From assembly GCF_900104815.1 (NCBI RefSeq), contig NZ_FNTD01000002.1:1-29193 (forward strand): a stretch of 29,193 bases of DNA. The letters run 5' to 3'. Made by a program: the position numbers and the translations under genes. The notes beneath the pieces were generated by a model. It was not told where the DNA came from and did not search any database. It was given only the letters and a program-made list of their open reading frames with translations. The DNA is from Streptomyces misionensis (GTDB taxonomy: Bacteria > Actinomycetota > Actinomycetes > Streptomycetales > Streptomycetaceae). Shown piece by piece: positions 1-29,193 of this stretch. Numbering within the stretch: the stretch's first letter is position 1; every line of letters begins with the position of its first letter.

Positions 1-3000
1 GCTGATATGCGCCGGGATACGTAGCGTCTTACCGGTCACGCTCGCGGTGCTGCCGTCGGACTGCTGCACCTTGGCGGTGTCCTGGACGGAGGACCACGTG
101 CCGACCCAGTGCTGGGCGTCGGACCCGCTGCCTGCGACGCTCATCGGCGCAGGCCGAGGGCCGAGGATGTGCAGTGAGGGCTGTCCGGCCTGGACTCCGT
201 TGGTGAACAGGGGCAGGGAGATACTGCTGATGATCGAGCCGGGGGCACTGGAGCGGGACACTGACGGCGTAGATTTTCGGGCCGGAGCTTGGGCTGGTCT
301 GGGTGTTGTCCTTGTGGTTCTCGTGGACCAGGGTCAGCGAGGCCGCCGCGGTGGCCCGCTGATCCAGTCGGGCACGCTGTCCAGCTGGTACGACTGGTCA
401 GCCGGGTTGCCGTCCGGGTCCAGGCAGTTGTCCTTGGCGTAGGTGATGGTGCCGATGGCTCCCTTGGCCGCACCGCCGGTGGCGAAGGCAAGGAAGACCA
501 CCGAGTCACCGGTGTTCACCACACCGCTGTCCGGGACGGTGATGGTCTGGCCGGAGGCGAGCATGTTGTCGTAAGCGCCGCTGCCGAACTTCGGCAGCGT
601 GACGTTGGCGCCGTCCACGGTGACCGTCTGCCCCACCCTGCCAGCCGAGGCACTTGTCAGGTCGGCGGAGTTGATGCTGTTGCCGGATCCGTCGGCGTCG
701 GCGGTGCTGGTCGTGGTCGTGAACGTGCTGGTGGCGGTGTTGTTCAGGCAGCTTCCGGTGCTGTTGATCGCGCACGCCAGCGCCGGTCCGAGCCGCAGCA
801 CGTCGATACCCGCCTGGAACCCAGAGGAACTGGATTCTTGCCCGTCAGGGTGAGCGTCAGCGTGTGGACACCCTGCCTGAGGGTGAGCAACTGGCCGCTG
901 GAGTCCTTCGGTACGCCCAGGTTGAGGAACTGGGTGGTGACGTAGGAGTTGTAGGGTCGTACCCGCTGATCAGCGTCGACTGCGTGGGCTTGCCCGCGTC
1001 CAGGACCAGCCGGTAGATGCCGTAGTCCTTTGCCTTGGTCAGGTTGGCACCGAAACTCCAGGGCCCGTCTTTCGGAATGTCGAAGCTGAGGGTGACACTG
1101 TCACCGGAGACGACCTTCGAGGTACTGCTCTTGTTGCCGAGGAACGCCTGGTAGCCGTCAGCGAACTCGTAGCCGCTGCCGGCGGCCTGGCTGATCAGCT
1201 GACCACCCTTGGTGGTGACCGTAGCCGCGGGCACCGAGGTCGTCGTATTGTCCGCGTTGGTCGCGCTCCAACCGGTGATCATCTTGTCGCCGTAGGCGTA
1301 CGCCGGAGTGCTGCTACCCGCGTAGAAGACGTAGGACGCCTGAGTGAGAGACGTCGAGCCTGCCTGGTCCACGGCCTTCGCATACAGCGTGTGCGGTCCC
1401 GTTGCCCCGGGAGCAAAAGCGGGGGAGGCACTGCCGTTGATGACCGACGTGCCGGTGCCCGAAGCGTTGTCGGAGCTGACGTAGTACGCCGTGCCCGGCG
1501 CGATCTTCGTGCCCGTGCTCCACTTGGTGACACCACTGCTGGTGTACATGGTGTTCCCGAGCGTGCTGTCCAGACGGAACAGATAGCCAGTGATGTTGTT
1601 GGTGTGATTGTTGCTGAGGGTGAAGGTTCCCTTGTCGCCGTAGGCGGCACCGATCTGTTTGGCCGGGAACTGACTCGACGTCACCGTCGGGCCGGCGGCG
1701 CGCTGGTGTCGACGGTGAAGGTCTGCGTCTTCGTCCAGACGCCAGAGCCCGTCCCGGCCCAATAGCCGGCCGCGTTCTGAGCGGTAGCCTTCCAGGTGTA
1801 GGTGCCGTCCGGCAGACTCGGCGAGGTCCAGTCACTGCCGTTGGTGTTGTACCGGGCACGCTTCTTCGAATCCGTGCTGGGGCCAAAACCCTGATGTATC
1901 AGCGTGCCGGAGGAGTTGTAGACGTTGTACTCCATGCGGACCAGTTCGCTGCCGCCGGCCAGGTCGGGATCGACCGCGCGCGCGGACAGCGTCGGGGTGT
2001 GGGTGGTGGTCATCGTCTTGCCCATGCTCACCGTGGACGGCTTGAGCGCGGGAGTGCCGTTCAGCTTGGGCCGGTAACTGTAGGTGACCGACATAGTGGC
2101 GCCGCCACCGTAGGCAAGCTGCTTCCACTGAGTGGCGTCGTTCATGTCGGGTGACTGGACCATCAGCGTCATGCTCTTCCAGCCGCCGGCCGCCGCGCTC
2201 TGCGCACGCGAGGTCACGTCGAACTCGAGCGATGGCGGGCTGACCCAGGAGTTGGCCCCATCGGTCACCGGACAGGTGCCGGCCTCATGGCTCTTCGGGT
2301 TCGAACCCAACGCGCCGGTACGCCCTCCGGCTCGTGGCCCCAGTACAGCGAGGAGGAACTCCAACCGGCGGGGCGGTCGGTGCCGTAAACGGCAGCCGGG
2401 GTGTCGGAGCAGGAGGCGGCGGAGAGCTGCTTCACATACAGCGAGGCGTGAGTGACCACGGCACCTTTAATGCCGCTGGTGTTCATCTGGTAGTACGTCC
2501 GAGCCCGTTCACCGTTGCCGGGGTAGGAGTTGTCCCATCCCTCGCGGGCGTTGGTGGAACCCGAGGTGGACGTCGAGTTGTAGACGTTCCACCCGTTGTC
2601 GGAGATCCGAGCCCAGTCCAGTTGGGATGGTCGGCCGCTCCACTCGGGGTCGATGTAGACAGGATAGGCCGTGCTCTTGGCCGAAAGCAGGTTCTCGTCA
2701 ACCCCCAGCAGCTGCTTGCCGGACTCGAGGCTCATCCTGACCTGGGCGTGGTGCTTGCCGACCTTGGCCGCCGCCCGATGCTCGGCCCGGGCCGAAGACA
2801 CGGACGTGGTGCGCACCAGAGAGGCGGGGGTCTTCTGGCCGGTGCTGTCCCACATCAGCGCGGTGTCGCTGTGGAACACCGTCCTGCCGGTGTGCTTGTC
2901 CGTGGCCTGGACGCCGCCGTCGCGCGTCGCGGCCAGCTTGATACCGGCCGACGAGGTGCCGAGGGCGAGGCGCCGCAGCCGCGGATCGGTCGCCGCCTTC

Positions 3001-3626
3001 GCGGATTTGACCACAAGGACCGAGGAGTAGCCAGAGGCGTCCGCGGTCAGCTGGAGATCGACCTGGGGCAGCACGTCCGGATACGTAGCAGTGTCTCCGG
3101 ACACCACTGGTGTGGGCAGGGCGCCCGGCCAGGAGAAGCCCAGCTTGTCCTGGCCGTTACGCATCGTGGCCAGCGCACCGGAGCCACCACCGGAGAAGGA
3201 CACGTCCGTGACCACGGCCTTGGGCGCCCAGGTCCCGTCAGACCGCCGCACCAGCGTGGTGTCGATCGGCACCCACTTCCCGTGCTGGAAGGTGCGCTGC
3301 GGCATGGAAGAGTCGGTGCGGGTGAAGGTGCCATCCGGGTTGGCCACCACCACCGTTCCGGTATCGGTGAGTTGATCGATGGTCACCGGTTTACCCGTGG
3401 CCTTCGCCCGTGCAGAGGCGGACTCGGTGGCGTTGAGGCTGCGTTGGGCCCCCGGTGTGCTGCCGGACGAATCTGCATGCGGCGACCGGGTGGGGCCGGC
3501 CGGTGCCGCATGGGCCACCACGGCCGAAGTCAGTGACCCGGCGGCGAGAGCGGCGACGACGGTGACGGCAACGGGTCTGGACGTGGAACGTCTGAATGCC
3601 CATATGGCTGGGCGAAAGGCTGACAT
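1..3626 (-). pseudogene. Broken DNRLRE-type secreted surface protein, possibly with a GDSL/SGNH-like 3' part; runs off the left edge
   Basis: A large secreted cell-surface protein is readable on the minus strand only by switching frame several times. It starts at ATG 3626, with AAGGACG upstream. It has a signal peptide (hydrophobic stretch around residues 18-40, ending near VVAHA), then a DNRLRE-type domain (about residues 320-440, near 2340-2670) common in Streptomyces wall proteins. Fibronectin/Ig-like modules follow (text such as SVTYSYRPKL and VDTSAPAGPTV across a frame change). Coding text jumps frame near 2310-2330, 1695, 955, 830, 350 and 255. After the last jump the text contains QHWVGTWSS, which resembles the start of GDSL/SGNH hydrolase domains, but that assignment is tentative because the domain lies outside the window. 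Each segment still reads as good protein, so decay is recent or some indels are read errors. It is divergent from the Rhs gene. Confidence 0.75.
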
Positions 3627-4200
3627 CGAGGTTGGCGTCCTTCGCGGGACTCAGGCGGCCCCCCCTTGGGTCCGCGCCGCTGTGCATTCTGAATGCAAGG
3701 AGCGGCGTGAACCATCGACAATCGACCGCCGAGCGCACGTGTCTGGCTTATTCTTGACGTACTTCCATAGCCGGTCTTGCTATCCAGATGCCTACTTGCG
3801 CATGTTTTGCCGGGCAGGTGCAGGGCGAGCGATGTCAGGCTCGCGCGGGGTGTTGTGTAGCACTGTGCCCTATATGGGGGTGAGGAATCGGGTCAGGTCG
3901 GGGTCGGAGTATGCGGGACGCAGCTACGTCTTGGGAGCCCGGGCCTAATTGAGCGCTCGACTGGTTGCCGTTGATGCGGGTGACCTATTCTCGATCGTGG
4001 ACTACGAGATTCCGTTCCATTCAAGGTAATTCCTTTACTGATTCACAAAAGTTTTTTTACTTTAAGTGTTGGTCTGACCGCTTAGCGTGAGACTTTGCGG
4101 GGGGAGTGATCTATGTTTGCCCCTGCTTTGACGTGCCCTCAAACAGCGCCGGCAGAAGAGTGCTTGTGCTTGCGAGGCGTTGAGGAGGGGAACGCACGGT
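3627..4200. promoter_or_regulatory. 574-bp divergent intergenic region between two secreted-protein genes
   Basis: No convincing gene lies here. The stretch at about 4009-4085 is strikingly A/T-rich for this genome, with a run of T and A tracts. It sits where the promoter of the Rhs gene, and perhaps that of the minus-strand gene, would be expected. I could not define -35 and -10 boxes with confidence. The Rhs start is set by GAGGAGGGGAA at 4182-4192, ten bases before ATG 4201. Confidence 0.45.
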
Positions 4201-7200
4201 ATGGGGCGGGTAGCCTGGTGGAGACGGGACAGCCGGTCGGTCTGGGCCGGTCACAGTGTTCGACGTACGGCAGTTGTCGCCGTCGGTGCCCTGGTTGTGG
4301 GGCTACTGCCCGCGGACGCGGTGGCGGCCCCCTCTTCGACAAAGCACGGCGTCGCAATCTCTGCGGCACCGCATAACAAGCGGATTCCGTTCACGCGGCA
4401 AACGCCTAGGCGGGGACCGTCTCCCAAGCCGTTCAAGCATTTCAACCCCAGTGGGCACGCGAAGCTTCCCGCCCCGGGCAGCGCCACCGTCACCTTGCCC
4501 GTCACAGTCGCCCCAGGCCTGAGTGCCAAAGCGACTCAAGTCCGGGCCGGGAAGATGCCCGTGCTGCTCAGCACCGCACCGAGTGTGCAGGACCGGTCGG
4601 CAGCTGTCACTGCAACGCAGCGCGTACGAGTGACGATGCTGGACCAGAAGTCCGCGCTCGCGGCCGGCATCCACGGCGCACTGTTCACCTTGCAACGCAC
4701 AAGCCCTGGCAACGGCAAGATCGCGCTTCAGGTGGACGACTCCTCATTCCGCTATGCCTTCGGCGGAGACTTCGCCTCCCGCCTTCATCTCGTCGAACTC
4801 CCCGCGTGCGTGCTGACGACACCGAAACTGGCACGTTGCCAGGTACAGACGTCGGTGCGCACGACACCAGATGCACCACTGTCTGGTCAGGTGTCTGTCC
4901 CAGGTGCAACCCATGTGAAAGCTGGCGGTACCTCCGGTCGCCACGAAGTGCCCGCATCCGGGACCACGGTTGTCATGGCCGCCACCTCCGGCACCTCGGG
5001 CTCCTCCGGCGACTACTCAGCGACCAGTCTGTCACCGGCCGGTTCCTGGTCGACCTCGGCGAACACTGGAGCGTTCACCTACAGCTATCCGATCACAGTG
5101 CCACCAGCTGTCGGTGGAGCATCACCGAGCGTGACTCTGTCGTATGACTCCTCCAGCCAGGACGCGCGTACCGAGGGCACGAACAACCAGTCCTCGTGGT
5201 TGGGTGACGGCTGGAGCATGGCAGACAGCTATATCGAGCGCACCTACAAGCCATGCAGCGACGACTCCTCGTCCGGCGCGCCGAAGGGCGACGGTGACGA
5301 ATGCTGGGCAGGCCAGATCCTGACTCTGTCGCTGAACGGGGCATCCACCGACATCGTGTACGACGATGCCACCAAAACTTTCCGGCCAACCTCCGACGAC
5401 TCCACCACCAAAATCGAAGACCTGACTGGTGCCTCGAACGGCACGGCGAACGGGGAGTACTTCAAGGTCACCGAGGGCGGTGTGCAGTACTTCTTCGGTC
5501 TCAACCACCTGCCGGGCTGGTCCAGTAGCAAGGACGAGACCAAATCCGCCTGGACCGTTCCGGTTTACCACGCTCACAGCGGTGTCTCCGCGTGTCCGGA
5601 CAGCACGGACTTTGCCTCCACTACTTGCACACTGGGTTACCGATTCAACCTGGACTACGCGGTCGACACACACAACAACGCCACCGCCTGGTACTACACG
5701 CCGGAGACTGGCTACTACGGCGCAGATATGAAGGACACCGCAGTCGCCTACACCCGCGGCGGCACCCTCGCACGCATCGACTACGGCATGACCTCCTCGA
5801 CCATCTACTCCGGCACCGCACCGGAACAGGTCGTCTTCAACACCGCCGAGCGCTGCATTTCGGGAACTCCGTCGGGAAACACCTGCGCCGACAGCCAGTT
5901 CACGCCGTCGAACGCCTCCTACTGGCCAGATGTGCCCGTCGACCTCAACTGCACTTCTTCAGGAGCAAGCTGCACCAACCATGGCCCGAACTTCTGGTCA
6001 CGCAAGCGGCTGACTTCCATCATTACGCAAATCCAGACGAACGGTGCGACCCAGCAAGTAGACAGGTACACCTTCACCCAGTCCTTCCCCGACGGCGGTG
6101 ACCACGCTCCGACCTTGTGGCTGGACTCCATTCAACGCACCGGCCTCGACACTCTGGGCGGAGCCACGGGCAGCATCTCCACGCCGGCGGTGAACTTCGA
6201 CCCGCCGCTGCAACTGCCCAACCGGGTGGGAACGATCCCGCAGATGCCGCTGATGTACCACGACCGCATCCAGACCGTCACCAGCGAGACCGACGCCCAG
6301 ACCACCGTCACCTACGACCGCCCAGACTGCTCCAAAGCCCCCGCCAGCGACCCCAACGACCCGACCGACGCAGCCGCCCAGTCGTTCGCCTCAACCAACA
6401 CCCTCTCCTGCTTCCCGGTGTACTGGACGCCCTACGGGCAGCCGTCACCATGGATGGACTGGTTCTACAAGTACAAGGTCTCGTCGGTCGTCACCGAAGA
6501 CACGCACAACTCCTACCAGGACGGTACCGAGCCCAAGCTGGAGACGGACTACGACTACAAGGGCAACCCGGGCTGGCACTACGACGACGACGAGGTCGTC
6601 AAGGCGAAAAACCGGACCTGGGGCCAGTTCCGTGGTTACCCCGAGGTGGACGTCACCACCGGCGACCCGACTGTCTTCCATGAAACGAATGGCGCCGCGG
6701 TCCATGACAAGAAGACGCTGACGAAGACGTACTACTTCCTGGGCATGAACGGCGACACACTGCCAGGCGGAAAAACCCGCTCGGTGCCGGCACTCAAGAG
6801 CCAAGACGGCGCCACTACAGTTGCAGACGACAACGCCCTGGCCGGCCAGACGTTCGAGACTGATACCTACACCGCCTCGGACGGTGGGCTTGACAACGCA
6901 GTCGTCGACGTCCCCACGGTCATCGGTCCGACCGCAAGCCGTTCACGTTCCGGACTGGCGGCACTAACGGCACAGATGGTCCGCCCGGCCAAGAGCCTCA
7001 CTCGCAAGACAGTCTCCTACGGCTGGCGTAAGACCGAGACCGACACCTTCTACGACACGACCCTCGGCAAGCCAACGACCGGCATGCCCGTCCAGGTCGA
7101 CGACCGCGGCGAGACGGCAGACAGTAACAACATCTCCAAGTGCACCTATACCCACTACATCACCAGCAGCTTGGACACTCTGGTGCTGCCCGCAGAGGTC

Positions 7201-10200
7201 ATCTCCACAGCCCAGGACTGCTCCAGTGCGGGGGCGGCTCCGGGCGGCTCCCTGATCTCCGACGTCCGTACCTCCTACGACCACAACGCCTTCGCCTATG
7301 ACGGAGACGGCCAGCAAAACCCGGCACTCCCCAAGACCGGCGACGCAACGCTGGACCAGCAGGCGTCCGCCGCCAGCGGCGCCACCGCCACCACCTTCGT
7401 CAATATGGCGGCCACCTACTACGACTCCTACGGCCGCGTGACCAAGGTGGTCCGCACTCCCAACTCCACGTCCCCCGATGGCAAGAGCCTCGCCGAGAAC
7501 GTCTACACCACCTACACCCCGGCAAGCGGCGCGCTGCCCACCAGCACTACGACCGTCACCCAGGTCACTTCCGGCGCGGACTGCTCAACAACCACCACAT
7601 CGTCCAAAGACTGCCAACTCACCAGCACCACCCTCGATCCCGCACGCACCCTACCCACCGCCAAGACCGACGCGGCCGGCCTGCTCACCTCCCTCACCTA
7701 CGACGCGCTGGGCCGCAGCACAGCCGTATGGCTGCCCAACGAAAACAAAGCCGCCAGCGCGCCAGCGAACATTACCTACACCTACAAGCTGGCTCAGCAA
7801 CCGCCCATAGTCGCCACCAACACCCTTCTCGACGACGGCAGCTACAAAACCAGCGAAACGCTCTACGACGCCATGCTGCGCCCCCTGCAGACGCAGGAAA
7901 CCGCCGAGAACTCAAGCACCACGGTCAGTGATACACAGTACGACTCGCATGGCTGGACGGTCCTCACCAACAACGCCTACAACGTCGGAGGCAGCCCCAC
8001 AAGCAGCCTGGACACCCCGTCCCGGCTCACCATGTCCGACACCACTGTCACCGACCACGACGGCATGGGCCGCGCCGACCTGGTCACCGAGGAACACAAC
8101 TACGCCAAGACCTGGGCAACGACCACCGCCTACACCGGCGACAAGACCACCGTCCTGCCCCCCAAGGGCGGTGTGGCCACCACCACTGTCGTCAACGCCC
8201 GCGGCCAGACCACCGAACTCGACCAGTACACCGCCGCCCCCACCCTCTCCGGCACCGCGGCCAACGGATACACCGCAAGTGGAGGAACCACCTCACCCAC
8301 CACCTACGGCTACAACGCCGCTGGTCAACAGAACCAGGTCACCGGCCCCGACAAGAGCCAATGGACAGTCGACTACGACCTGCTCGGCCGCAAGAAGACC
8401 CAGCAGGACCCAGACGCTGGCAAGTCAGACTACGGCTGGGACGACGCCGGCAACCTGACCTCAACCACCGACGCCAAGAAGGTCGAACTCGACTACACCT
8501 ACGACCTCCTAGGCCGCAAACTCACCGCCAGCGACAAGGCCAAAAGCGACTTCGAATTCGCCTCGTGGGCCTACGACACCCTCCGCATCGGCCTGCCCAC
8601 ATCATCGACCCGCTACGTCCAGGGCACCACGGGCGGTTACACAGTCGCCGTTACCGGCTACACCACTCTCGGAAAGCCCACCGGCACACAGATCACTCTG
8701 CCGACGTCGGAGGCGCCGCTGCCGACGACCTACAGGACGACCTACAGCTACTCGACCAACGACCAGTTGCTGCGGTCACAGTCTGACCCCCCGACCCAGG
8801 GCCTGACCAGCGAAACCATCAACTACGGCCATGACACGCTCGGCAACCCGACCACCTCGGGCAGCGGCGTCTTTGGCTACATCACCGGCACCACGTACGA
8901 GGACTTCGCACAGCCTTCCCAGCTCACGCTCGGCCCCCCCACCAATCAGGCAACGACCACCTACAGCTACGACGATCAGACCCTCCGGCCGACAGAACGG
9001 GTTATCCAACGTACCCAGGCCCCCGGCCCCACAGTCGACGACACCAAATACACCTATGACGACGCCGGCAACCCCACCTCCACCACCGATCAGCAATCGG
9101 AAACCGGCAACACCGTCACCGACCAACAGTGCTACAACTACGACGCCCTGGACCGGCTCACCGACGCCTGGACCGCCAACGACAACTGCGCAGCCAACCC
9201 ACCGACCACAACCACCCTCACCACCGCACCCGGATCGTACTGGCAGACCTTCAACTACGACGCCATCGGCAACCGCCACCAGAGCATCGATCACGCTCTC
9301 GGCACCACCAGCACAACCACCACCACCTACAACGACGGCTGCACCGCCAACTGCAACTCCACCGGAGCGCAGCCCCACACCCTGACTTCCACCACGGGTG
9401 GAACCAACCCGACCACCTTCGGCTACGACGAAGACGGCAACCTTCACAGCCGCACTCCCACCACAGGCCCAGGACAGACCCTCACCTGGGACGACGAGGG
9501 CAACCTTGCCGCGGTGGACACCACCGGACCCAGCCCCACGACGACCAAGTACCTCTACGACGCCGACGGCAACCAGTTGATCCGCCGGGACCCCGGCCAG
9601 ACGACTCTCTTCGCCGGCGACACCGAGATTGTCGTCAACACCAGCGTCACCCCCAACGTCCTCCTCGGAGCCGTCCGCACCTACACACACGGAGGCACCG
9701 GAAGCCCAGTGGCCGTCTGGTCCAGCCTCAAGGGCGGCGGCAAGAAGTACCTCTTCAACGACGCTCACGGCACCGCGACTCTCTCAATGGACTTCGCCAC
9801 CCAGCAGGTCGCCCGCCAGCAGTACACGCCCTTCGGCCAACCACGGGACAGCGCCAACACTTCCACATGGCCCGACCTCACCCACAGCTATCTGGGCAAG
9901 CCCCAAGACACCTCGACCGGTTACACCGACGTGGGTGCCCGCAAGTATGCCCCCGACCTGGGCCGCTTCATCAGCGTCGACCCGGTCTTTAAGGCCGACA
10001 GCCCTCAAGAGCTCGGTGGTTACGCATACGCAGCCAGCAACCCCGTTACGAACAGTGACCCCAGCGGCCTGTTCCTGCCAGGAGACATGCTGGCCGGGGG
10101 TACTCCCAGACGCGGAAGCAACGTGGACACGTCCGAACAGGACAACAACAAGAAACTCTTGAACCAGCTTCCGCGGTGGGACGGCGACAGGCTGAACCAG

Positions 10201-11304
10201 GTATGGGTGTACTACGGGTACAACACCGATGGCAATAGCTACTGGCAGACGCCGGTGGGAGACGGCCACCGCACGGCTATGGCGTGCTTCGGACGTACCG
10301 GTTGCCAGCAGGCAGCCAAGGTATGGATGAACACACACGACCTAGCCAAGGCCAAGCTAGTCGCCGCCACCTACTGCGTGACGCACCTCAAACGCTGCCT
10401 AATAGATCAGGGCGCATATGACTCCATGAAAGGCGCCGCCGAAACTGTGCCCCTGCTTCTTGCCGGTGGAGAGGGCATTGCAGCAGAGGAAGCAGAAGGT
10501 GCGGGGGGCGCGAAATGCAGCTTTAGCCCCAGCACTCCTGTCCTCATGGACAAAGGCAAGACCAAGCCGATCGGAAAGATCAAAGCCGGTGACAAGGTCG
10601 AAGCTGCAGACCCCAAAACCGGAAAACACCAAGGATCGCGGACCGTCCAGCACGTATGGATAAACCGTGACCACGACCTACTCGACGTCACCATCCGCAC
10701 CGAGAACGGTCACACAGCAACCCTACACACCACCGCTAACCATCCCTTCTGGAACGACACCGCTCACGCCTGGACCCCAGCAGGCAAGCTTCACCACGGC
10801 GACGCCCTCAACACAGCCACCAACCACCACGCGTACGTTGTCGCCACTCACCGCACATCCGGCACCGCCGACCGCTGGAACCTCACAGTTCAGCAACTCC
10901 ACACGTACTATGTACTCGCCGGTACGACGCCAATCCTGGTGCACAATACTGATGGGGCAGCTTGTGGGCTGGTTCCGTACGGCAGTACTGAGCTGAGTAG
11001 GGCAACTGCGTTCCAGCGGCTGATAGAAAACAACAAGGGAAATAACTACGCCGCTGCGCGGTTGCAGGACGGGACAATTCTGGTCGGGCGATCCAGCGCG
11101 GGTATCCATGCGGAAGAAGACCTGATCAGGAAAGCTGGCGACAGGAGGATTGTGGAGCTATACTCCGAACGTCAGCCATGCGCGAATAAGTGTGAAGGTC
11201 TAACGGCTGGAATGAATACTAGCTGGTCCTGGAATTGGAACGGTGTTGATCGAGGAGCGGTCAATGCGGAAATCAAGGCCACGATCAACGATCTATTCAA
11301 GTAG
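4201..11304 (+). CDS. Secreted Rhs/YD-repeat polymorphic toxin with SpvB-like N-terminus, Hint domain and C-terminal deaminase toxin
   Basis: A giant exported toxin of 2367 residues, probably displayed on the cell surface to deliver a toxic tip into competing cells. Start is ATG 4201, preceded by GAGGAGGGG; an in-frame TTG at 4180 lies before that site and is rejected. Domains in order: an arginine-containing N-terminus with a hydrophobic core, signal cleavage near residue 42 (DAVAA); a threonine/serine-rich linker; an SpvB/TcaC-like region (GAFTYSYPITVPPAVGG, then LGDGWSM, about 285-345); many YD repeats (YDALGR, YDLLGRK, YDDAGN, YDADGNQ, about 1150-1810); the Rhs core motif (DVGARKYAPDLGRFISVDPV, then DPSGL, about 1910-1955); a Hint domain (2106-2249); and a deaminase-like toxin (2250-2367). 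Rhs shells protect their toxin by encapsulation. It is intact, unlike the divergent neighbour, and is followed by an immunity gene. The shell and Hint calls are firm; the exact toxin family is less so. Confidence 0.92.
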   Translation: MGRVAWWRRDSRSVWAGHSVRRTAVVAVGALVVGLLPADAVAAPSSTKHGVAISAAPHNKRIPFTRQTPRRGPSPKPFKHFNPSGHAKLPAPGSATVTLPVTVAPGLSAKATQVRAGKMPVLLSTAPSVQDRSAAVTATQRVRVTMLDQKSALAAGIHGALFTLQRTSPGNGKIALQVDDSSFRYAFGGDFASRLHLVELPACVLTTPKLARCQVQTSVRTTPDAPLSGQVSVPGATHVKAGGTSGRHEVPASGTTVVMAATSGTSGSSGDYSATSLSPAGSWSTSANTGAFTYSYPITVPPAVGGASPSVTLSYDSSSQDARTEGTNNQSSWLGDGWSMADSYIERTYKPCSDDSSSGAPKGDGDECWAGQILTLSLNGASTDIVYDDATKTFRPTSDDSTTKIEDLTGASNGTANGEYFKVTEGGVQYFFGLNHLPGWSSSKDETKSAWTVPVYHAHSGVSACPDSTDFASTTCTLGYRFNLDYAVDTHNNATAWYYTPETGYYGADMKDTAVAYTRGGTLARIDYGMTSSTIYSGTAPEQVVFNTAERCISGTPSGNTCADSQFTPSNASYWPDVPVDLNCTSSGASCTNHGPNFWSRKRLTSIITQIQTNGATQQVDRYTFTQSFPDGGDHAPTLWLDSIQRTGLDTLGGATGSISTPAVNFDPPLQLPNRVGTIPQMPLMYHDRIQTVTSETDAQTTVTYDRPDCSKAPASDPNDPTDAAAQSFASTNTLSCFPVYWTPYGQPSPWMDWFYKYKVSSVVTEDTHNSYQDGTEPKLETDYDYKGNPGWHYDDDEVVKAKNRTWGQFRGYPEVDVTTGDPTVFHETNGAAVHDKKTLTKTYYFLGMNGDTLPGGKTRSVPALKSQDGATTVADDNALAGQTFETDTYTASDGGLDNAVVDVPTVIGPTASRSRSGLAALTAQMVRPAKSLTRKTVSYGWRKTETDTFYDTTLGKPTTGMPVQVDDRGETADSNNISKCTYTHYITSSLDTLVLPAEVISTAQDCSSAGAAPGGSLISDVRTSYDHNAFAYDGDGQQNPALPKTGDATLDQQASAASGATATTFVNMAATYYDSYGRVTKVVRTPNSTSPDGKSLAENVYTTYTPASGALPTSTTTVTQVTSGADCSTTTTSSKDCQLTSTTLDPARTLPTAKTDAAGLLTSLTYDALGRSTAVWLPNENKAASAPANITYTYKLAQQPPIVATNTLLDDGSYKTSETLYDAMLRPLQTQETAENSSTTVSDTQYDSHGWTVLTNNAYNVGGSPTSSLDTPSRLTMSDTTVTDHDGMGRADLVTEEHNYAKTWATTTAYTGDKTTVLPPKGGVATTTVVNARGQTTELDQYTAAPTLSGTAANGYTASGGTTSPTTYGYNAAGQQNQVTGPDKSQWTVDYDLLGRKKTQQDPDAGKSDYGWDDAGNLTSTTDAKKVELDYTYDLLGRKLTASDKAKSDFEFASWAYDTLRIGLPTSSTRYVQGTTGGYTVAVTGYTTLGKPTGTQITLPTSEAPLPTTYRTTYSYSTNDQLLRSQSDPPTQGLTSETINYGHDTLGNPTTSGSGVFGYITGTTYEDFAQPSQLTLGPPTNQATTTYSYDDQTLRPTERVIQRTQAPGPTVDDTKYTYDDAGNPTSTTDQQSETGNTVTDQQCYNYDALDRLTDAWTANDNCAANPPTTTTLTTAPGSYWQTFNYDAIGNRHQSIDHALGTTSTTTTTYNDGCTANCNSTGAQPHTLTSTTGGTNPTTFGYDEDGNLHSRTPTTGPGQTLTWDDEGNLAAVDTTGPSPTTTKYLYDADGNQLIRRDPGQTTLFAGDTEIVVNTSVTPNVLLGAVRTYTHGGTGSPVAVWSSLKGGGKKYLFNDAHGTATLSMDFATQQVARQQYTPFGQPRDSANTSTWPDLTHSYLGKPQDTSTGYTDVGARKYAPDLGRFISVDPVFKADSPQELGGYAYAASNPVTNSDPSGLFLPGDMLAGGTPRRGSNVDTSEQDNNKKLLNQLPRWDGDRLNQVWVYYGYNTDGNSYWQTPVGDGHRTAMACFGRTGCQQAAKVWMNTHDLAKAKLVAATYCVTHLKRCLIDQGAYDSMKGAAETVPLLLAGGEGIAAEEAEGAGGAKCSFSPSTPVLMDKGKTKPIGKIKAGDKVEAADPKTGKHQGSRTVQHVWINRDHDLLDVTIRTENGHTATLHTTANHPFWNDTAHAWTPAGKLHHGDALNTATNHHAYVVATHRTSGTADRWNLTVQQLHTYYVLAGTTPILVHNTDGAACGLVPYGSTELSRATAFQRLIENNKGNNYAAARLQDGTILVGRSSAGIHAEEDLIRKAGDRRIVELYSERQPCANKCEGLTAGMNTSWSWNWNGVDRGAVNAEIKATINDLFK
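10516..10947 (+). other. Pretoxin Hint (intein-like) autoprocessing domain inside the Rhs protein
   Basis: The domain opens with Cys2106 (CSFSPSTPVLM), the nucleophile of Hint domains. It continues with KIKAGDKVEA, a TANHPFWN-type His block and LHTYYVLAG, and ends in PILVHN (His2248-Asn2249), the usual C-terminal cleavage signature. At 144 residues it lacks room for a homing endonuclease. Hint domains in polymorphic toxins release the tip by self-cleavage. Cleavage after Asn2249 would free a toxin of about 118 residues. Confidence 0.9.
10948..11301 (+). other. C-terminal toxin domain with cytidine-deaminase-fold motifs
   Basis: The last 118 residues hold the two zinc motifs of the deaminase fold: HAEEDL with His2303 and catalytic Glu2305, then PCANKC with Cys2327 and Cys2331. 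The spacing between the cysteines is three residues; many deaminases have two. The text LYSERQPC, placed 14 residues after the HAE block, resembles the XOO_2897-type and other bacterial toxin deaminases described in polymorphic toxins, and DddA is a more distant relative. The likely substrate is cytosine or another base in nucleic acid or a nucleotide of the target cell. Which one cannot be read from the sequence. Codon use is more A/T-rich than the Rhs shell. Confidence 0.75.
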
Positions 11305-11312
11305 CTAGGAAG

Positions 11313-11345
11313 AGCGGCACCTCATCCAGCGGATGGGGTGCCGCT
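11313..11345. terminator. 15-bp hairpin between toxin and immunity genes
   Basis: AGCGGCACCTCATCC pairs with GGATGGGGTGCCGCT around an AGC loop; the only imperfection is one G-T pair. It starts nine bases after the Rhs stop. There is no long T-run, as is common for Streptomyces terminators. It may end or attenuate the Rhs transcript, so the immunity gene may also have its own promoter. Confidence 0.7.
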
Positions 11346-11377
11346 TCTCTAGGGTAACGTTCGGATGAGGGTGTCCA

Positions 11378-11878
11378 ATGGTGGATCTGACTGACGAGAA
11401 CTGGCCGTCTTTTGCCATGGTGCAGATCCATGGTTCAAGTGCTGGGAATCCCGACTGGGACGGTCCGGATCTAACGCTTGAGGTCCCGAGGGCAATGGTC
11501 GGGGCGACGTATCGGGCTGCGGATGCTCTAACGAGGGGCCATGGAAGCCTCGTAAGGTTCGGTTCGACCGGGCTCTTTGGCAGCATTCTGCTCGATACCG
11601 TAACGGGTGCAGTGGTTAAGCTTGAGCGAGACGCGCACCATGTGAGCATCGTGAATTCTTCACTCCCCAACTTTGTTGTGGTGGTGAGGGCGGTGATTGA
11701 GCGGTTTCCCTTCTATGACTCAGGCAGCGATGATAGCGAGTGGATGGCTGCCGCAAGGGCAGTAGAGGAAATCGTTCGAGGTGTCGACCCAGGTGCCTTC
11801 ATTCGGGATGGATTCTGGGAAACGCTCGTTAATGATATTGAGATGGGGGATTTTTCTACAGAAGATGTCCTGGGGTAG
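11378..11878 (+). CDS. Probable SUKH-family immunity protein for the Rhs toxin
   Basis: A 166-residue cytoplasmic-looking protein with no signal or membrane segment, starting at ATG 11378 behind GATGAGGG. It lies 73 bp after the toxin gene on the same strand, the standard place for a cognate immunity gene. Seen in sequence: RFGSTGLFGSILLDTVTGAV followed by VSIVNSSLPNF and an acidic C-terminal half. The pattern of a glycine-rich strand, an acidic D-x-x-TG turn and VNSSL-x-x-F resembles the SUKH-4 branch of the SMI1/KNR4 superfamily. SUKH proteins are frequent partners of nuclease and deaminase toxins and neutralise them by direct binding. Position makes the immunity role likely; the family assignment rests on motif resemblance only. 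Codon use is A/T-richer than in the Rhs shell, matching the toxin tip, so the two probably moved together. Confidence 0.72.
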   Translation: MVDLTDENWPSFAMVQIHGSSAGNPDWDGPDLTLEVPRAMVGATYRAADALTRGHGSLVRFGSTGLFGSILLDTVTGAVVKLERDAHHVSIVNSSLPNFVVVVRAVIERFPFYDSGSDDSEWMAAARAVEEIVRGVDPGAFIRDGFWETLVNDIEMGDFSTEDVLG

Positions 11879-12314
11879 TGGCAGGATATTGCGATGGCCT
11901 TTATGTCGGGTCGCTGAGAATCGCCGCGAGGTTTCGAGCCTGGCCGGACCGACCATTGGGCCTGGATTCCCAGAGCATTTTCTGAATAGCGATCAATCCG
12001 TGCCATTAATCTCAGGAAGCCCCCCGCTAGGCCGTCCTGGACGATCCGGAGTTGGTGGAGTGGCGCGGCGGAGGCCTCCCGGCCAGCTCTTTACTGCCGC
12101 CGGACGGTGCGCTGTCACGCCGGGTGGGAGAGCCGGGCACCGGTGATGTCCGTGGCGTGCAGGGAGATCTGCCCTTGTCCTGGACCGTCGGTGGCCTACG
12201 GGCCGCCGACGGGTGCTCCTGCTTGGTGGGACTGGTCCACCCACGCCTCCGGGTTCCGGGTGACCACCCAGCTCCTGACTCGGGTGGCCGGCCCTTCCCA
12301 GGTGCTGCTGGGGC
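11879..12314. other. Gene-poor stretch after the immunity gene, possible unrecognised gene debris
   Basis: No intact gene is supported here. On the minus strand, from about 12330 down to 12100, there is protein-like text (VVTRNPEAWVDQSHQAG, then after a stop ISLHATDITGARLSHP) that could be debris of another gene. I do not recognise its family. The tap homology stops just to the right, near 12370, so a deletion or insertion boundary lies about here. Confidence 0.4.
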
Positions 12315-13138
12315 TCACCACCAGCGGCCAGCTCTGGAATGGCCCGGCATCAGCCTCCTTTGCCCGGGCAGGCCGTACCGCTCGCACGCGGCCTCGGTGA
12401 GCACCAGCAGCGGGTCGGCGTCCTTGCCCGAACCGTGCAGCCTCTCCGCCCCCAGCCGCGCCTCGGCCAGCGTCCATTCGATCAGGGCGGGCAGGGACTT
12501 GGCGGGTACGTCCAGGATCAGGCCGCCGACGTCGTAGCCGGTCACATGCCGGTCGGTGGCGGTGTTGGTGTTGGTGTCGAGGGCGAGCAGCGGGCCGTGC
12601 GCGTACGCGCCGCCGGGCGTGGGCGTGTTCGCCGGGGAGGCCTTCTTCGCATCCGGACGACGCGAGCCGTGCGACGTCCGCCCTGCATGTGGATGCGACC
12701 CGGCGGCCGGTGCCCGGACGGCCGCCGGGGGAGCGGAAGCGGAGCCCTCTTCTTCTGGCCCGGTCGTGGCCGCAGGGTCCGGTGCCCCGCCTGTCGGCGG
12801 CGTTGTTCGTCTCGATGACGCGGCCGCCGCCTGGGCTGGGTGCCGCAGCGGGTTGCGGCAGCGCGGTGTCCTCTTGCGGGACACCGGTGGTCTCGGGGAC
12901 GGGGTAGAGCGTGGCGAGGTGCTCCAGCAGGTGTGCGTACGCCTCCCGCTTCGGTGGCCGCGGCTCGGTCTTGCCCGGCTCCCAGCGGCCGAGGGTCGCC
13001 TGCCGCGCCTTCAGTGCGGCGGCCGCCTCGTCCAGGGTCGAGCGCGTGGGCCTGGCGTGACCGCTTGCGTTCCGCCGGCGGCGGTAGCGGGGACGGGGAG
13101 GCGGCCAGCGCGTCGACCGCGTCGAACAGCTCGGACAT
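12315..13138 (-). pseudogene. tap: Truncated and frameshifted telomere-associated protein gene (tap remnant)
   Basis: Tap is the Streptomyces protein that binds telomere DNA and recruits the terminal protein during end replication of linear replicons. The remnant starts at ATG 13138 behind GGAGGTG and reads MSELFDAVDAL, then PLPPPAERKR, the expected N-terminus. One extra base near 13050 moves the XRE-type helix-turn-helix into the next frame (STLDEAAAALKAR, then LGRWEPGKTEPRPP). A second shift in the linker near 12810-12840 leads to the conserved block GGLILDVPAKSLPALIEWTL and SGKDADPLLVLTEAACERYG. Homology ends near 12370 after roughly 250 residues, whereas full-length Tap is about 740. The gene is therefore dead by two indels and loss of its C-terminal two thirds. 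No terminal-protein gene (tpg), the usual partner, is in the window. Confidence 0.82.
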
Positions 13139-13173
13139 GGAACACCTCCACCTTAACCCCAACCGCATGTAGC

Positions 13174-13212
13174 GCGTACGTACTGCGTACATGTCGCGTA
13201 CATTTCGCGTAC
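13174..13212. repeat. Four GCGTAC repeats at exact 11-bp spacing (iteron-like operator)
   Basis: GCGTAC occurs at 13174-13179, 13185-13190, 13196-13201 and 13207-13212, each exactly 11 bp from the last, so the sites face the same side of the helix. The block lies between the divergent starts of tap (13138) and the helicase (13324). A possible -10 box, TAGGGT at 13232-13237, would put its -35 region over the last repeat. It looks like a cooperative binding site for a regulator, perhaps Tap itself through its helix-turn-helix; that is inference. Confidence 0.72.
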
Positions 13213-13323
13213 GAATGGGTTTGTCGGGTGGTAGGGTCCCTAGGCGGCCCGTCTTCGGTGGGCTCAGCGCCTCCCGGCCCGGCTGCTGCCTGGATGCATG
13301 CCTGCGTATCGAGGGAGAGCTTG

Positions 13324-15762
13324 ATGACTGTGGTCGAATTGCCGCGGCCCGGCCGCTCCGAACGGTCCCAGCTCTTCCCTGACCAGGCGGAGGCAGTCGA
13401 TCGGCTGGTACGCCACCTGCACCGCCCGGGGACGAGAGCGCTGTTCGTGTCGGCGACGGGGACCGGGAAGACGCTGACCTCGATCCGGGTGGCGGACGGG
13501 CTCGGTGCGCGGCTGGTGCTGTTCGTGGTGCCCACCCTGGACCTGGCAGCGCAGACCGCGCTGGCCTGGCGACGGGACGGCCACGGCGAGCACATGGTGA
13601 TCGTCTCCTCCCTGGACGCCGCCGGCCGTGACGATCTGGTGGCCGCCCGGATCATGTCGACCACCAGCCCACACGCGCTGGGCGGGCTGATGTCGGTCGT
13701 GGGGGAGGGCGAGGACCAGATTCGGGCGTTGACGGTGATCTGCACCTACGACTCCCTGACCAAGATCGAACAAACCCAGAGGACGGGGTACGCCGTCCCG
13801 CCGTTCGACCTCGCGGTCATGGATGAAGCGCACCGGATCGCCGGCCGGGCCGACAAGAAATGGGTGATCGTCAACGACGCGCAGCGGATCCGCGCGGACC
13901 GCCGTCTCTACATGACCGCCACCCCCCGCATCTTCGCCGCGCCTGAGCTGGCGGAGTCCGCCGACACCACCCGCCCCCGCCGCCGCCCGCAGGGCGAGGA
14001 GGTGGACGCGTTCGCCAACTCCATGGACAACGAGCAGGTGTACGGCAAGAAGATCGTCGACTACCCCCTCGCGCAGGCCGTGGCGGACGGCCGCGCTGCG
14101 GACTACCGGATCGTGGTGCCCACCCTCACCGACACCGACCTGCGCCGCCGCCTCAACCTGCCCGCCCCCGGCACCACCCCCACCGGCGCCACCGCGCCCC
14201 GGGAGCCGAACGACGACAGTGCGCTGCGCACCACCGCCCTGCACCTGGCAGTCCTGCGCGCCATGACCGAGCACCGTCTGAAGAAGGTCCTGGTCTACTT
14301 CAACCTGGTCTCCGATGCCCGCCGCTTCGCCCGCGAACTCCCGCACACCCTGCGCCTGCTCGCCCAAACCGACCCCGGCCTCGTCCCCGGCATCGACCCT
14401 CAGCTGTTCTTCGCCCACGGCGAGCACACCTCCGCCCAACGCGCCGACATCTTCACCGCCTTCGCCGCCGCCGACACCGCGATCCTCGCCAACTCCCGCC
14501 TGATCTCAGAAGGCGTCGACATCCCCAGCGTCGACGCGATCGTCTTCGCCGACCCCACCCGCAGCGTCATCCGCTGCGTCCAGGCCCTCGGCCGCGCCCT
14601 GCGCCTGGACGTGAGCGGCAAGACCGCCTCACTGATCGTCCCCGTCTACATCCCGCCCGGCGCCGACGCCGAGAACATCCTCGGCACCGCCTACGAACCG
14701 GTGTGGGCGATCGCCTGCGCCCTGGCCAGCCACGACCACCGCATCCTCGAACGCCTCCCCGACAAAGCCAACCGCCTCCCACGCGAGACCAGCCAGGTCA
14801 TCGCCCGGCGCTGGCACTTCGACTTCACCGTCCACCCCGAACGCATCGCCCAGGCGATGGACCTCATCTCCTTCGACCCCCGCGACCCGGCCGTCTCCCG
14901 CTCCCGCCGCCTCGGCCTCGCCGCCGCCCACTCCTACCGCGACGAGCACGGCCACCTCGACGTCCCCGCCGACCACACCGATCCCACCGGCTACCGGCTC
15001 GGCACCTTCATCACCACCATGCGCGACGCCGCGAAGGCCGGCCGCCTCGAAACCGACTGGATCGCCGAACTCGACACCCTCGGCATGATCTGGGACAAGC
15101 ACGACGCCGCCTGGCGCGCCCGCCTCGCCGCCGCCACCGACTACCACCGCACCCACGGCCACCTCGCCGCCCCCGCCACCACACCCGTCGGAGCCTGGCT
15201 CGCCGAACAACGCCACCACGCCACCAAGAACGTCCTCGACACCGCCCGCGCCGACGCCCTCACCGCCCTCGACCCCGACTGGCGCCTTCCCCATGGTGCG
15301 GACTGGCACCGCAAATACCACCTCCTGCGCGCCCACCTCGCCACCGGCGCCGACCCCGCCGCCCTCACCCGCGACACCGTCCTCGCCGGCGTGAAGATCG
15401 GCTCCTGGCTGGCCCGCCAGCTCACCACCTGGCCCACCCTCACCCCCGGCCAGCAACAGCTGATGACCGCGCTCGGCCTCACCCCCGAGGCGAACCCGCT
15501 GGCTCCCGCCCGCCGTACCCGCCGCACGTTCGAGGAGACCGTCCAGCTGCTGGAGCTCTTCCTGCACCGCGAGGGCCGCACCCCGGCCGCCCGAGAGACG
15601 ATCCGCGTCGACGGCGACGCCGTCAAGATCGGCGCCTGGCTCGCCAAGGCCCGCACCAAGCACCGCGCAGGCCAGCTCCCCGGCCATCACGTACGCCTGG
15701 TTGCCGCCCTCTTCGAGGGGGACTGGACGGCCGAGGACGCCGTGCCGGCCGTCCTGATGTAG
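13324..15762 (+). CDS. DEAH-box superfamily 2 helicase with helicase-associated (HA) repeats
   Basis: An ATP-driven nucleic-acid helicase of 812 residues. Start is ATG 13324 (TTG 13321 is also possible) behind GAGGGAG; the open frame runs further upstream across tap but has no coding character there. Motifs: Walker A ATGTGKT (44-50), DEAH (167-170), motif III TATPR (about 197-201), SEGVDIP and the arginine-finger motif QALGRALR (420-427), all typical of the type III restriction-subunit (ResIII) branch. From about residue 530 to the end are repeated HA-type units (for example HSYRDEHGHLDVP, YHRTHGHLAAP, VGAWLAEQR, VKIGSWLARQL, VKIGAWLAKAR). Such HA-repeat helicases are common on Streptomyces plasmids and chromosome arms; their cellular role is not settled. 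Helicase-like genes also occur at Streptomyces telomeres (ttrA), but I cannot say this is one. Confidence 0.9.
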   Translation: MTVVELPRPGRSERSQLFPDQAEAVDRLVRHLHRPGTRALFVSATGTGKTLTSIRVADGLGARLVLFVVPTLDLAAQTALAWRRDGHGEHMVIVSSLDAAGRDDLVAARIMSTTSPHALGGLMSVVGEGEDQIRALTVICTYDSLTKIEQTQRTGYAVPPFDLAVMDEAHRIAGRADKKWVIVNDAQRIRADRRLYMTATPRIFAAPELAESADTTRPRRRPQGEEVDAFANSMDNEQVYGKKIVDYPLAQAVADGRAADYRIVVPTLTDTDLRRRLNLPAPGTTPTGATAPREPNDDSALRTTALHLAVLRAMTEHRLKKVLVYFNLVSDARRFARELPHTLRLLAQTDPGLVPGIDPQLFFAHGEHTSAQRADIFTAFAAADTAILANSRLISEGVDIPSVDAIVFADPTRSVIRCVQALGRALRLDVSGKTASLIVPVYIPPGADAENILGTAYEPVWAIACALASHDHRILERLPDKANRLPRETSQVIARRWHFDFTVHPERIAQAMDLISFDPRDPAVSRSRRLGLAAAHSYRDEHGHLDVPADHTDPTGYRLGTFITTMRDAAKAGRLETDWIAELDTLGMIWDKHDAAWRARLAAATDYHRTHGHLAAPATTPVGAWLAEQRHHATKNVLDTARADALTALDPDWRLPHGADWHRKYHLLRAHLATGADPAALTRDTVLAGVKIGSWLARQLTTWPTLTPGQQQLMTALGLTPEANPLAPARRTRRTFEETVQLLELFLHREGRTPAARETIRVDGDAVKIGAWLAKARTKHRAGQLPGHHVRLVAALFEGDWTAEDAVPAVLM

Positions 15763-27238: not shown

Positions 27239-28378
27239 TCACCGCCCTCCTGGACCCGGCAACTCGCGTACAGTCCGCATCCAGGTCTCGCCGAAGCCGG
27301 CCGGGCCGGTGTCGTCACCGGGGACGAGGAAGATGTCCGGGTCCTCGCCGAGTTGTTCCAGGAGCGCCTCGTACAGGTTGTCGAAGGGCGGTTCCATGCA
27401 GATCGCCAGGGATTCGGCGAACTGCGTGGGGGAGGGGTCGAGACCGATCATGTGGTCCAGGACCGGGAACATGCCCCATGCGTCGATCCGCCGCCGCAGC
27501 GCGGCCAGGGCCGGGGTGTCCGGCAGGAGCAGCCCGTGCAGCACGTACAGCCCGTAGAACCCGCGCAGGCCGACGAGAACCGCCCGCGCCCGCACCAGTT
27601 CCTCACCACTGGCCCGCTTCACCGGCCCCACGATGTCCCCGAGCTGCTGCAAAAGCCCCCAGTCCACCGGCGGTCGCTCACCGCGCTCCGCCGCGCCGAG
27701 CGCCTGCTCCCAGTCTTCGACCGTCAGGTCGAACATGCCGGACGCGGCGAACGCCTCGGCCAGCGCACCTGCGCCGGCCTCCTGCGCCCCGAAGCCGATC
27801 GCGGCAACCAGGTGCACCATGCTCCTGAAGTCCGGCCTCTCCGCCTCGACCGGCACGTCCTCGCCAGCTTCGAGGGCCGCGCGCACCAGAGCGGGGTTCG
27901 CCGCCCCGCGGTACGGCCTCACGAGCCGGCGGGCCACCTTATTCAACGCCTCCAGCCCTCCCTCACCCGCCCAGGCCGCGTCACGGGCGAACGCCACCAG
28001 GCGCTGCGACACCGACCTCTCCAGCGCCCATTCAAGGGCCTCCCGGACGGCGCCGATCGGGGGCTCCGGCACCCGCACAGTCCCCGGCTGCACCGGCAGG
28101 CCGGCCTCGGCGAACCACTCCAGCACGGCCAGCCGCCGGTCCCGTCCCTGCCGAAGGTGCCGCGCCAGCGCCGCCGCGCTCTCGACCACCACCGGGTCGA
28201 CCGCGTCGACCACCGACCCCCGGCCCCGCCTGAGCCCGCGGCGCCGGTGCCGCGGCAGCAACCCGGCCCGCCGCCAGCCCTCCAACTGGCTCGCCGTCAC
28301 TACCAGCTCTCGTGACGCAAGTTCGCCGATCACCTGCTGGTCAGCCGGGCTTGGCGCTCCTCGTGGCATGCCCTCCAT
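27239..28378 (-). CDS. MerR-like helix-turn-helix protein with a long helical effector region, function unknown
   Basis: About 379 residues from ATG 28378 (ATG 28399 and 28369 are also possible; none has a well-placed ribosome site). The N-terminus has VIGELASRELVVTASQLEGW and RRAGLLPRHRRRGLRRGRGS, a MerR-type winged-helix pattern: helix-turn-helix, GLLP turn, then a basic wing. The next section is helical (ESAAALARHLRQGRDRRLAV, LEWFAEAGLPV). The remainder is long and helical, with no membrane segment (GLRGFYGLYVLHGLLLPDTP, DAWGMFPVLDHMIGLDPSPT). Length is well above classic MerR regulators, whose effector domains are short, so this is probably a distinct Streptomyces family. It may regulate itself or the divergent small membrane gene through the palindrome at 28404. 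The sigma-operon gene upstream boundary is 48 bp away on the same strand. Confidence 0.75.
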   Translation of the reverse strand: MEGMPRGAPSPADQQVIGELASRELVVTASQLEGWRRAGLLPRHRRRGLRRGRGSVVDAVDPVVVESAAALARHLRQGRDRRLAVLEWFAEAGLPVQPGTVRVPEPPIGAVREALEWALERSVSQRLVAFARDAAWAGEGGLEALNKVARRLVRPYRGAANPALVRAALEAGEDVPVEAERPDFRSMVHLVAAIGFGAQEAGAGALAEAFAASGMFDLTVEDWEQALGAAERGERPPVDWGLLQQLGDIVGPVKRASGEELVRARAVLVGLRGFYGLYVLHGLLLPDTPALAALRRRIDAWGMFPVLDHMIGLDPSPTQFAESLAICMEPPFDNLYEALLEQLGEDPDIFLVPGDDTGPAGFGETWMRTVRELPGPGGR

Positions 28379-28403
28379 TACAACCCCGGGAAGTGACATT
28401 TTC

Positions 28404-28841: not shown

Positions 28842-29121
28842 AGCCGGGGAGGCACTACCCCCGTATCAGGATCCGCAGAAACTTCTCAGCGAAGGAAACA
28901 CCCTCTCCCTCAGCTGCCAGCTGCCCGCGAAGCGGGCCAAGTCCGGGAGCGCAGCGGACGGACCCCAAAGCCCCGGGGACCGGGGCCCCCTGAGCCTGCG
29001 CCAGCAGGCTCAGGTCCCTGGAGCGCAGCGAAAGGGACCACCGGCTCGAAGCGCAGCTTCGAGCCGGAAAGGCACCAGCCCCAATCCCGGATTCACCGAA
29101 AGTTCCCACCGAAGGAAACAC
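28842..29121 (+). repeat. Diverged 60-bp direct repeat, copies 28842-28901 and 29062-29121
   Basis: The two copies align without gaps at exactly 220-bp spacing, with 45 of 60 positions equal by my count. Both start AGCCGG and end in the identical CGAAGGAAACAC. Each copy is followed by a hairpin-forming stretch, so the region looks like an old tandem duplication of a telomere unit. Confidence 0.65.
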
Positions 29122-29193
29122 GGCTCGGAGCGCAGCGCAGAGCCCACCCCGAGCAACGCGAGGGGTGCCACTCCGTCAACCCCCGCGCAACGC
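28842..29193. repeat. Telomere-like cluster of GC-rich palindromes at the right end
   Basis: At least seven hairpins are packed here: GCCCGC-GAA-GCGGGC (28923-28937); GTCCG...CGGAC with a GC-GCA-GC tip (28941-28959); CCCCGG-GGA-CCGGGG (28971-28985); an 11-bp stem with loop GCCA (28989-29014); GGTCCCT...AGGGACC with a GC-GCA-GC tip (29013-29039); a perfect 12-bp stem with loop GCA (29041-29067); and CACCCC...GGGGTG with a GCAACGC tip (29145-29167). Three-base GAA/GCA loops closed by GC pairs are a hallmark of Streptomyces telomeres, where the 3' overhang folds before terminal-protein priming. The sequence differs from the archetypal telomere start as I remember it. Nothing in 28750-28841 was identified, and no credible gene lies in the cluster. 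Confidence 0.75.

Follow-up and report, generated by a model that had tools for sequence, protein, structure and literature searches.

The right end of the 29,193-bp stretch examined here (the window) raises the question of whether a gene-free run of hairpins at a contig end represents a new class of Streptomyces telomere. The original prediction read the last 350 bases as a non-archetypal telomere or, alternatively, as its inner part. That it is a telomere was borne out by overlap with the chromosome contig, by an inverted repeat, and by colinearity with a contig end of Streptomyces cinerochromogenes; the non-archetypal label was not supported, given two complete relatives capped by palindrome I and two tap-tpg pairs in the genome, and the alternative wording, an inner part, fits. 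We conclude with high confidence that the right end is the Tap/Tpg-type telomere of the terminal inverted repeat of a Streptomyces-type linear chromosome, with the outermost ~50 bases left unassembled. This would make it a real chromosome telomere, archetypal in type so far as this can be tested, and most likely not a new class.

The window is the whole of contig C2 (29,193 bp) in a 5-contig, 8.47 Mb genome, so base 29193 is indeed the contig end. The palindrome block occupies 28842..29193, and its + strand would be the 3' strand that forms the overhang. No open reading frame of at least 100 aa (the minimum set) extends beyond 28778, in agreement with the predicted lack of a gene in the last 350 bases, and the last 352 bases are present once in the 5-contig genome rather than dispersed through the chromosome. 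The + strand of the block folds far better than shuffled sequence (−87.1 kcal/mol versus −67.75 on average for shuffles; z −4.74; none of 100 shuffles did as well). Five perfect hairpins (stem of at least 5, loop of 3 to 4 bases) were found in the last 352 bases: one with a GCC loop (28911-28923) and, on the + strand, a 6-bp stem with a GAA loop (28923..28937), a 7-bp stem with a GGA loop (28970..28986), an 11-bp stem with a GCCA loop (28989..29014), and a 12-bp stem with a GCA loop (29041..29067). Three-base loops close four of these five, compared with an average of 0.55 in shuffles, only 2 of 1000 of which reached four. When 352-base stretches were slid across the window (n = 328), one reached four, and it overlaps the right end; four elsewhere reached three. 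The GCGNAGC core occurs five times on the + strand and never on the other strand of the last 352 bases, versus 12 (+) and 16 (other strand) in the remaining 28,841 bases. GNA loops on the 3' strand, as in archetypal telomeres, are thus present both as perfect GAA, GGA, and GCA hairpins and as a strand bias of the core. The count of seven or more palindromes with GAA or GCA loops was too high, as only two such loops sit on perfect stems of at least 5 (28923-28937 and 29041-29067), the other cores at the right end having short or interrupted stems.

The chromosome contig C4 (8,162,950 bp) overlaps at its right end with positions 1..7145 of the window (+ strand; 99.79% over 7152 aligned columns), with C2:1 corresponding to C4:8155807. 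The first 2637 bp of C4 are a perfect inverted repeat of C4:8152492-8155128, just inside the C2 overlap. From the overlap with the right end of C4 and the inverted repeat at its left end, C2 is placed by sequence as the outer part of the chromosomal terminal inverted repeat, by overlap on the right arm and presumably also on the left. If the left arm, which was assembled less far, continues like the right, the terminal repeat would measure ~32.5 kb, to which the missing end must be added. In this way C2, an orphan contig of 29 kb, is connected to the chromosome end.

The bases that should lie outside the window were recognized in relatives. S. cinerochromogenes JCM 3385 contig NZ_BMRM01000033.1 starts at base 1 with palindrome I, CCCGCGGAGCGGG, and the reverse-complemented window is colinear with it for 1.5 kb (84.6% over 1504 columns), base 1 of that reverse complement falling on base 51 and 38 of the first 40 aligned bases being identical. 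The offset is exactly 50 at the outermost anchors and 47-48 further in, through small indels. Palindromes II and III are both complete in S. cinerochromogenes, the latter as AACCCCCGCGC-GTT-GCGCGGGGGTT, with a 3'-strand loop of AAC, not GCA. The window holds only the inner (right) arm and loop of palindrome III (29178..29193, + strand), located by 14-mer anchors at the window end with an offset of 50. Read inward, it appears from this alignment to start two bases before the palindrome III loop and to be missing both palindromes I and II as well as the greater part of the outer arm of III, which lies beyond the contig end. Because the alignment starts at base 51 of the relative, ~50 terminal bases are absent from the window, and this most likely explains why its terminal bases, as had been remarked, do not resemble the archetypal start. 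Presumably the cell has these bases, and sequencing or assembly dropped them at the hairpin. Directly inside palindrome III lies an exact TGACGGAGTG box (29169..29178, − strand; position 16 of the reverse complement). By-eye comparison places an imperfect palindrome next to the box (29145..29167, + strand); its stem has two mismatches and is perfect in S. cinerochromogenes, a difference that may be real variation or sequencing error near the contig end.

S. cinerochromogenes was the sole locus titled Streptomyces among 12 found by an exact-pattern scan of the named genome collection. Two of the 12 were opened, and the second, L075 on an Actinomycetes MAG contig, had no telomere-like start. A same-genus blast set of 295 genomes gave matches in 40, including the window's own genome, many by short stretches only. 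Among them, contig 16 of genome G138 starts with CCCGCGGAGCGGGTA and aligns to the window from its base 81, and genome G151, a single 8,106,388-bp contig, carries a relative of this end sequence at both ends, aligned from base 67, and itself lacks the outermost bases. G138 and G151 have one more palindrome, which puts the distance at ~80 instead of 50. Named plasmids searched by blastn yielded 115 matching records, many short or weak, of which three linear plasmids, a pair from S. anthocyanicus and one from strain NL15-2K, extend 57-64 bases past the window end. No nearer complete end was found in a closest-relative search of 81 genomes (55 matching, mostly by short stretches), and identity to the nearest complete relative is no more than ~85%. 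Nothing decisive came from the right end of NZ_CP109572 or from the ends of S. althioticus and S. durmitorensis.

The 13-nt palindrome I stands at base 1 of both complete relatives, S. cinerochromogenes and G138 contig 16, and as CCCGCGGAGCGGGTA, the defining cap, it has no exact match in the present genome assembly. PMC7205883 gives it, written as the 3' strand, as the end palindrome of archetypal telomeres; a literature search for the string CCCGCGGAGCGGG did not find it as such, and its complementary form appears in that paper. In the genus sample, 57 places matched CCCGCGGAGCGGGTA, and 15 of the 30 loci examined carry it right at the end of a contig; in a sixteenth it lies one base in, and the others are internal or wrongly oriented. 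As a presence count the pattern is in only moderate excess (47 of 295 genomes versus 26 of 295 for the reversed control), so that only its position at contig ends is telling; the control was compared by genome count.

Both tap-tpg pairs lie on minus strands. The first is on the chromosome contig (C4:223392-226195; tap at C4:223991-226195, 1120.9 bits, followed by a tpg 64% identical to the S. anthocyanicus query), and the second is on contig C3 (C3:10289-13030; tap at C3:10874-13030, 1041.4 bits, followed by tpg). NCBIfam NF047541 and NF047542 identify the query proteins as Tpg and Tap, respectively, and both Taps of the genome exceed the NCBIfam cut-off, which gives the genome cognate tap-tpg pairs, either of which may serve this end. 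The right end shares with the archetypal Tap/Tpg-type telomere its closely spaced palindromes, its 3'-strand GNA loops, a genome with tap-tpg pairs, and complete relatives capped by palindrome I and then II and III; the differences are the ~50 unassembled outer bases and, in the complete relatives, the lack of a perfect complement between palindromes I and IV together with the presence of a TGACGRAGTG box.

That base 29193 instead begins a distinct non-archetypal class with its own terminal protein seems very unlikely to us. The terminal bases of the window are unlike palindrome I, and there is a precedent in PMC7205883, where some telomeres with CTTG loops are classed as non-archetypal even though a close relative has palindrome I; at this level, the choice between archetypal and non-archetypal is partly a convention. 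Against a separate class, the complete relatives carry palindromes I-III outside the aligned stretch, and the two tap-tpg pairs are present. Moreover, S. cinerochromogenes nt 14-65 give an alignment z >3 against 15 of the 17 other palindrome-I-capped ends (z 0.5 and 1.3 against the remaining two), and the perfect hairpins here have GCA, GAA, GGA, GCC, and GCCA loops, none of them CTTG. The Sg2247, SCP1, Sg13350, pRL1, and pRL2 classes share hairpin-rich 3' ends with this one when compared by their descriptions in PMC8743542, where GAA, GGA, and GTA are given as the most common loops; according to the same account, no Tap/Tpg was detected in the Sg2247 genomes, unlike this genome with its two pairs.

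We regard as similarly improbable a real, physically shortened telomere of archetypal type from which palindromes I and II were lost in the cell. This idea draws on contig C1 of the same genome (15,918 bp, linear), which has a perfect 901-bp terminal inverted repeat. An exact TGACGGAGTG box lies 14 bases inside the start of C1, compared with 15 in the window and 65 in plasmid pSCL1, and both C1 ends stop 14 bases outside the box, so that C2 and the two ends of C1 break off at almost the same place; the last 10 bases of C1 can also pair with an internal site, as a real end might. Yet palindrome I is the part first synthesized and II and III are the Tap sites in the account of PMC4513846, so their loss should be harmful, and the stopping depth varies among other assemblies, with the S. 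anthocyanicus plasmids and G151 ~13-14 bases short and S. althioticus NZ_CP109219 23 bases shorter than C1. Such varying stops look like assembly loss. Judged by the box, C1 probably ends at the equivalent place, the apex of palindrome III, like the window contig, and for both contigs a loss at the hairpin during library preparation or assembly would account for the missing bases. No relative of C1 with a longer end was found in 392 genus genomes (188 matched, the listed matches being mostly short, GC-rich, and contig-internal), so the case for truncation of C1 is the box position alone. One contig-start candidate that was opened (G341 C354) has a different palindrome array without palindrome I, and NCBIfam scans of ten C1 frames gave sigma-like and DnaB-like matches with no bearing on the telomere.

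It is extremely unlikely that the contig simply broke inside the chromosome at a cluster of hairpins, or that the block is the relic of an old internal telomere: internal telomere-like blocks do exist elsewhere, near 951 kb in SNP1 and near 4.98 Mb in G007, but the present stretch is single copy in its genome, C2 extends the chromosome contig outward beside an inverted-repeat arm, and G151 carries a relative at both ends of one contig. The first of these blocks, on S. nigrescens plasmid SNP1 (NZ_AP026074.1), consists of two head-to-head internal copies of this telomere and subtelomere, matching on opposite strands and meeting near 11941/12001 of a locus at ~10700-13160, one with a degenerate palindrome I; either a telomere fusion or an assembly join may have produced them. 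The second (G007 contig 1, 4979969-4980898) sits almost exactly in the middle of a 9,959,088-bp contig, with no telomere palindromes evident in the 300 bases outside it, and reflects either a circularized chromosome or a misjoined, rotated assembly.

Returning to a Tap/Tpg-type telomere with unassembled outer bases, its replication can be sketched by homology with the end-patching mechanism drawn from PMC4513846 and PMC3572947. Bidirectional replication would leave a 3' overhang of ~300 nt, here on the + strand, whose GNA-loop hairpins would fold. Patching of the end would then be started by Tap, bound to palindromes II and III, together with a Tpg that is covalently linked to the first C. A practical consequence is that a contig end left incomplete can be mistaken for a new telomere class, since the diagnostic palindrome is the part that assemblies lose.

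What is mildly novel about the right end concerns its sub-type only. In typical telomeres, palindrome I is complementary to part of palindrome IV (PMC4513846). As palindrome I is not in the window, this pairing was examined in the complete relatives, where the best complement within bases 41-160 was 10/13 (S. cinerochromogenes) and 9/13 (G138), not above shuffles. Of 18 palindrome-I-capped ends (16 genus loci, S. cinerochromogenes, and pSCL1), only 4 have a perfect (13/13) complement in that interval, which argues that the I/IV pairing is not a general feature; its lack in the complete relatives is why we use the label "archetypal-type", a variant. The TGACGGAGTG box (at most one mismatch) occurs in 3 of the 18, namely G138, S. 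cinerochromogenes, and pSCL1, and stands at position 66 both in pSCL1 (exact) and in S. cinerochromogenes (one mismatch). Even with up to two mismatches allowed, it was not found in the ends of S. anthocyanicus and NL15-2K, close relatives in other respects, and it is thus not universal in the group. The S. cinerochromogenes telomere differs from the window in having the outer 50 bases and a perfect box-adjacent palindrome. The pSCL1 end (S. clavuligerus, NZ_CP086230.1) shares the box and the terminal palindrome I; it has different inner palindromes, aligns with no more of the window query than bases 206-278, and holds a 12/13 complement of palindrome I within its palindrome III. By these comparisons the window appears as a variant behind palindrome III, with a less common subterminal part, and not as a different cap. 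Rather tentatively, we suggest a palindrome-I-capped sub-type in which a conserved TGACGRAGTG box behind III replaces the perfect I/IV fold-back, a possibility that we consider doubtful; it would include S. cinerochromogenes, G138, pSCL1, by its box this chromosome, and probably C1. If the sub-type holds, the end would fold differently or offer an additional protein site, with Tap/Tpg still serving it. The right end also offers a comparative way to ask which subterminal features Tap/Tpg truly requires.

Inside the telomere, the first large open frame (27239..28399, − strand) encodes a hypothetical protein with no Pfam or NCBIfam match; the product is 71% identical over 374 aa to a protein encoded at 859-2022 on an S. 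anthocyanicus linear plasmid, likewise beside the telomere. Further in, a helicase with helicase-associated domains (13324..15762, + strand; start set by alignment, the listed ORF beginning at 12556) is 85% identical (694/815) to a helicase of the S. anthocyanicus linear plasmid NZ_CP109572, where the gene lies divergent to tap. The label TtrA was not adopted, the relative compared being this tap-divergent helicase. Beside the helicase of the window lies a probable decayed tap remnant (12360..13113, − strand), recognized by two partial NF047542 matches (111 and 47.4 bits), both below the cut-off of 600. Sub-cut-off matches to NF047542 also occur in 4 of 14 control genomes, so the call depends on the stronger match and on gene order. 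The remnant with its divergent helicase (12360-15762) suggests an exchange of the chromosome arm with a linear plasmid.

Among the other contigs, C3 (203 kb) is probably a second linear replicon with incomplete ends: an inverted repeat of 217 bp (96.8%) lies near the ends, and of its three tpg-like frames two are open and one is interrupted by a stop. In contig C5, the region 46707-62239 contains a stretch of 12.3 kb that is inverted on itself (49991-62239, 99.6%) and also repeats 9.4 kb of the start of the contig, attributable to either an assembly artefact or a plasmid dimer. Within the window itself, a 2374-aa frame at 4180-11304 combines an RHS repeat, a pretoxin HINT domain, and a deaminase-like C-terminal domain (XOO_2897-type), and its product resembles a polymorphic toxin carried in the terminal arm.
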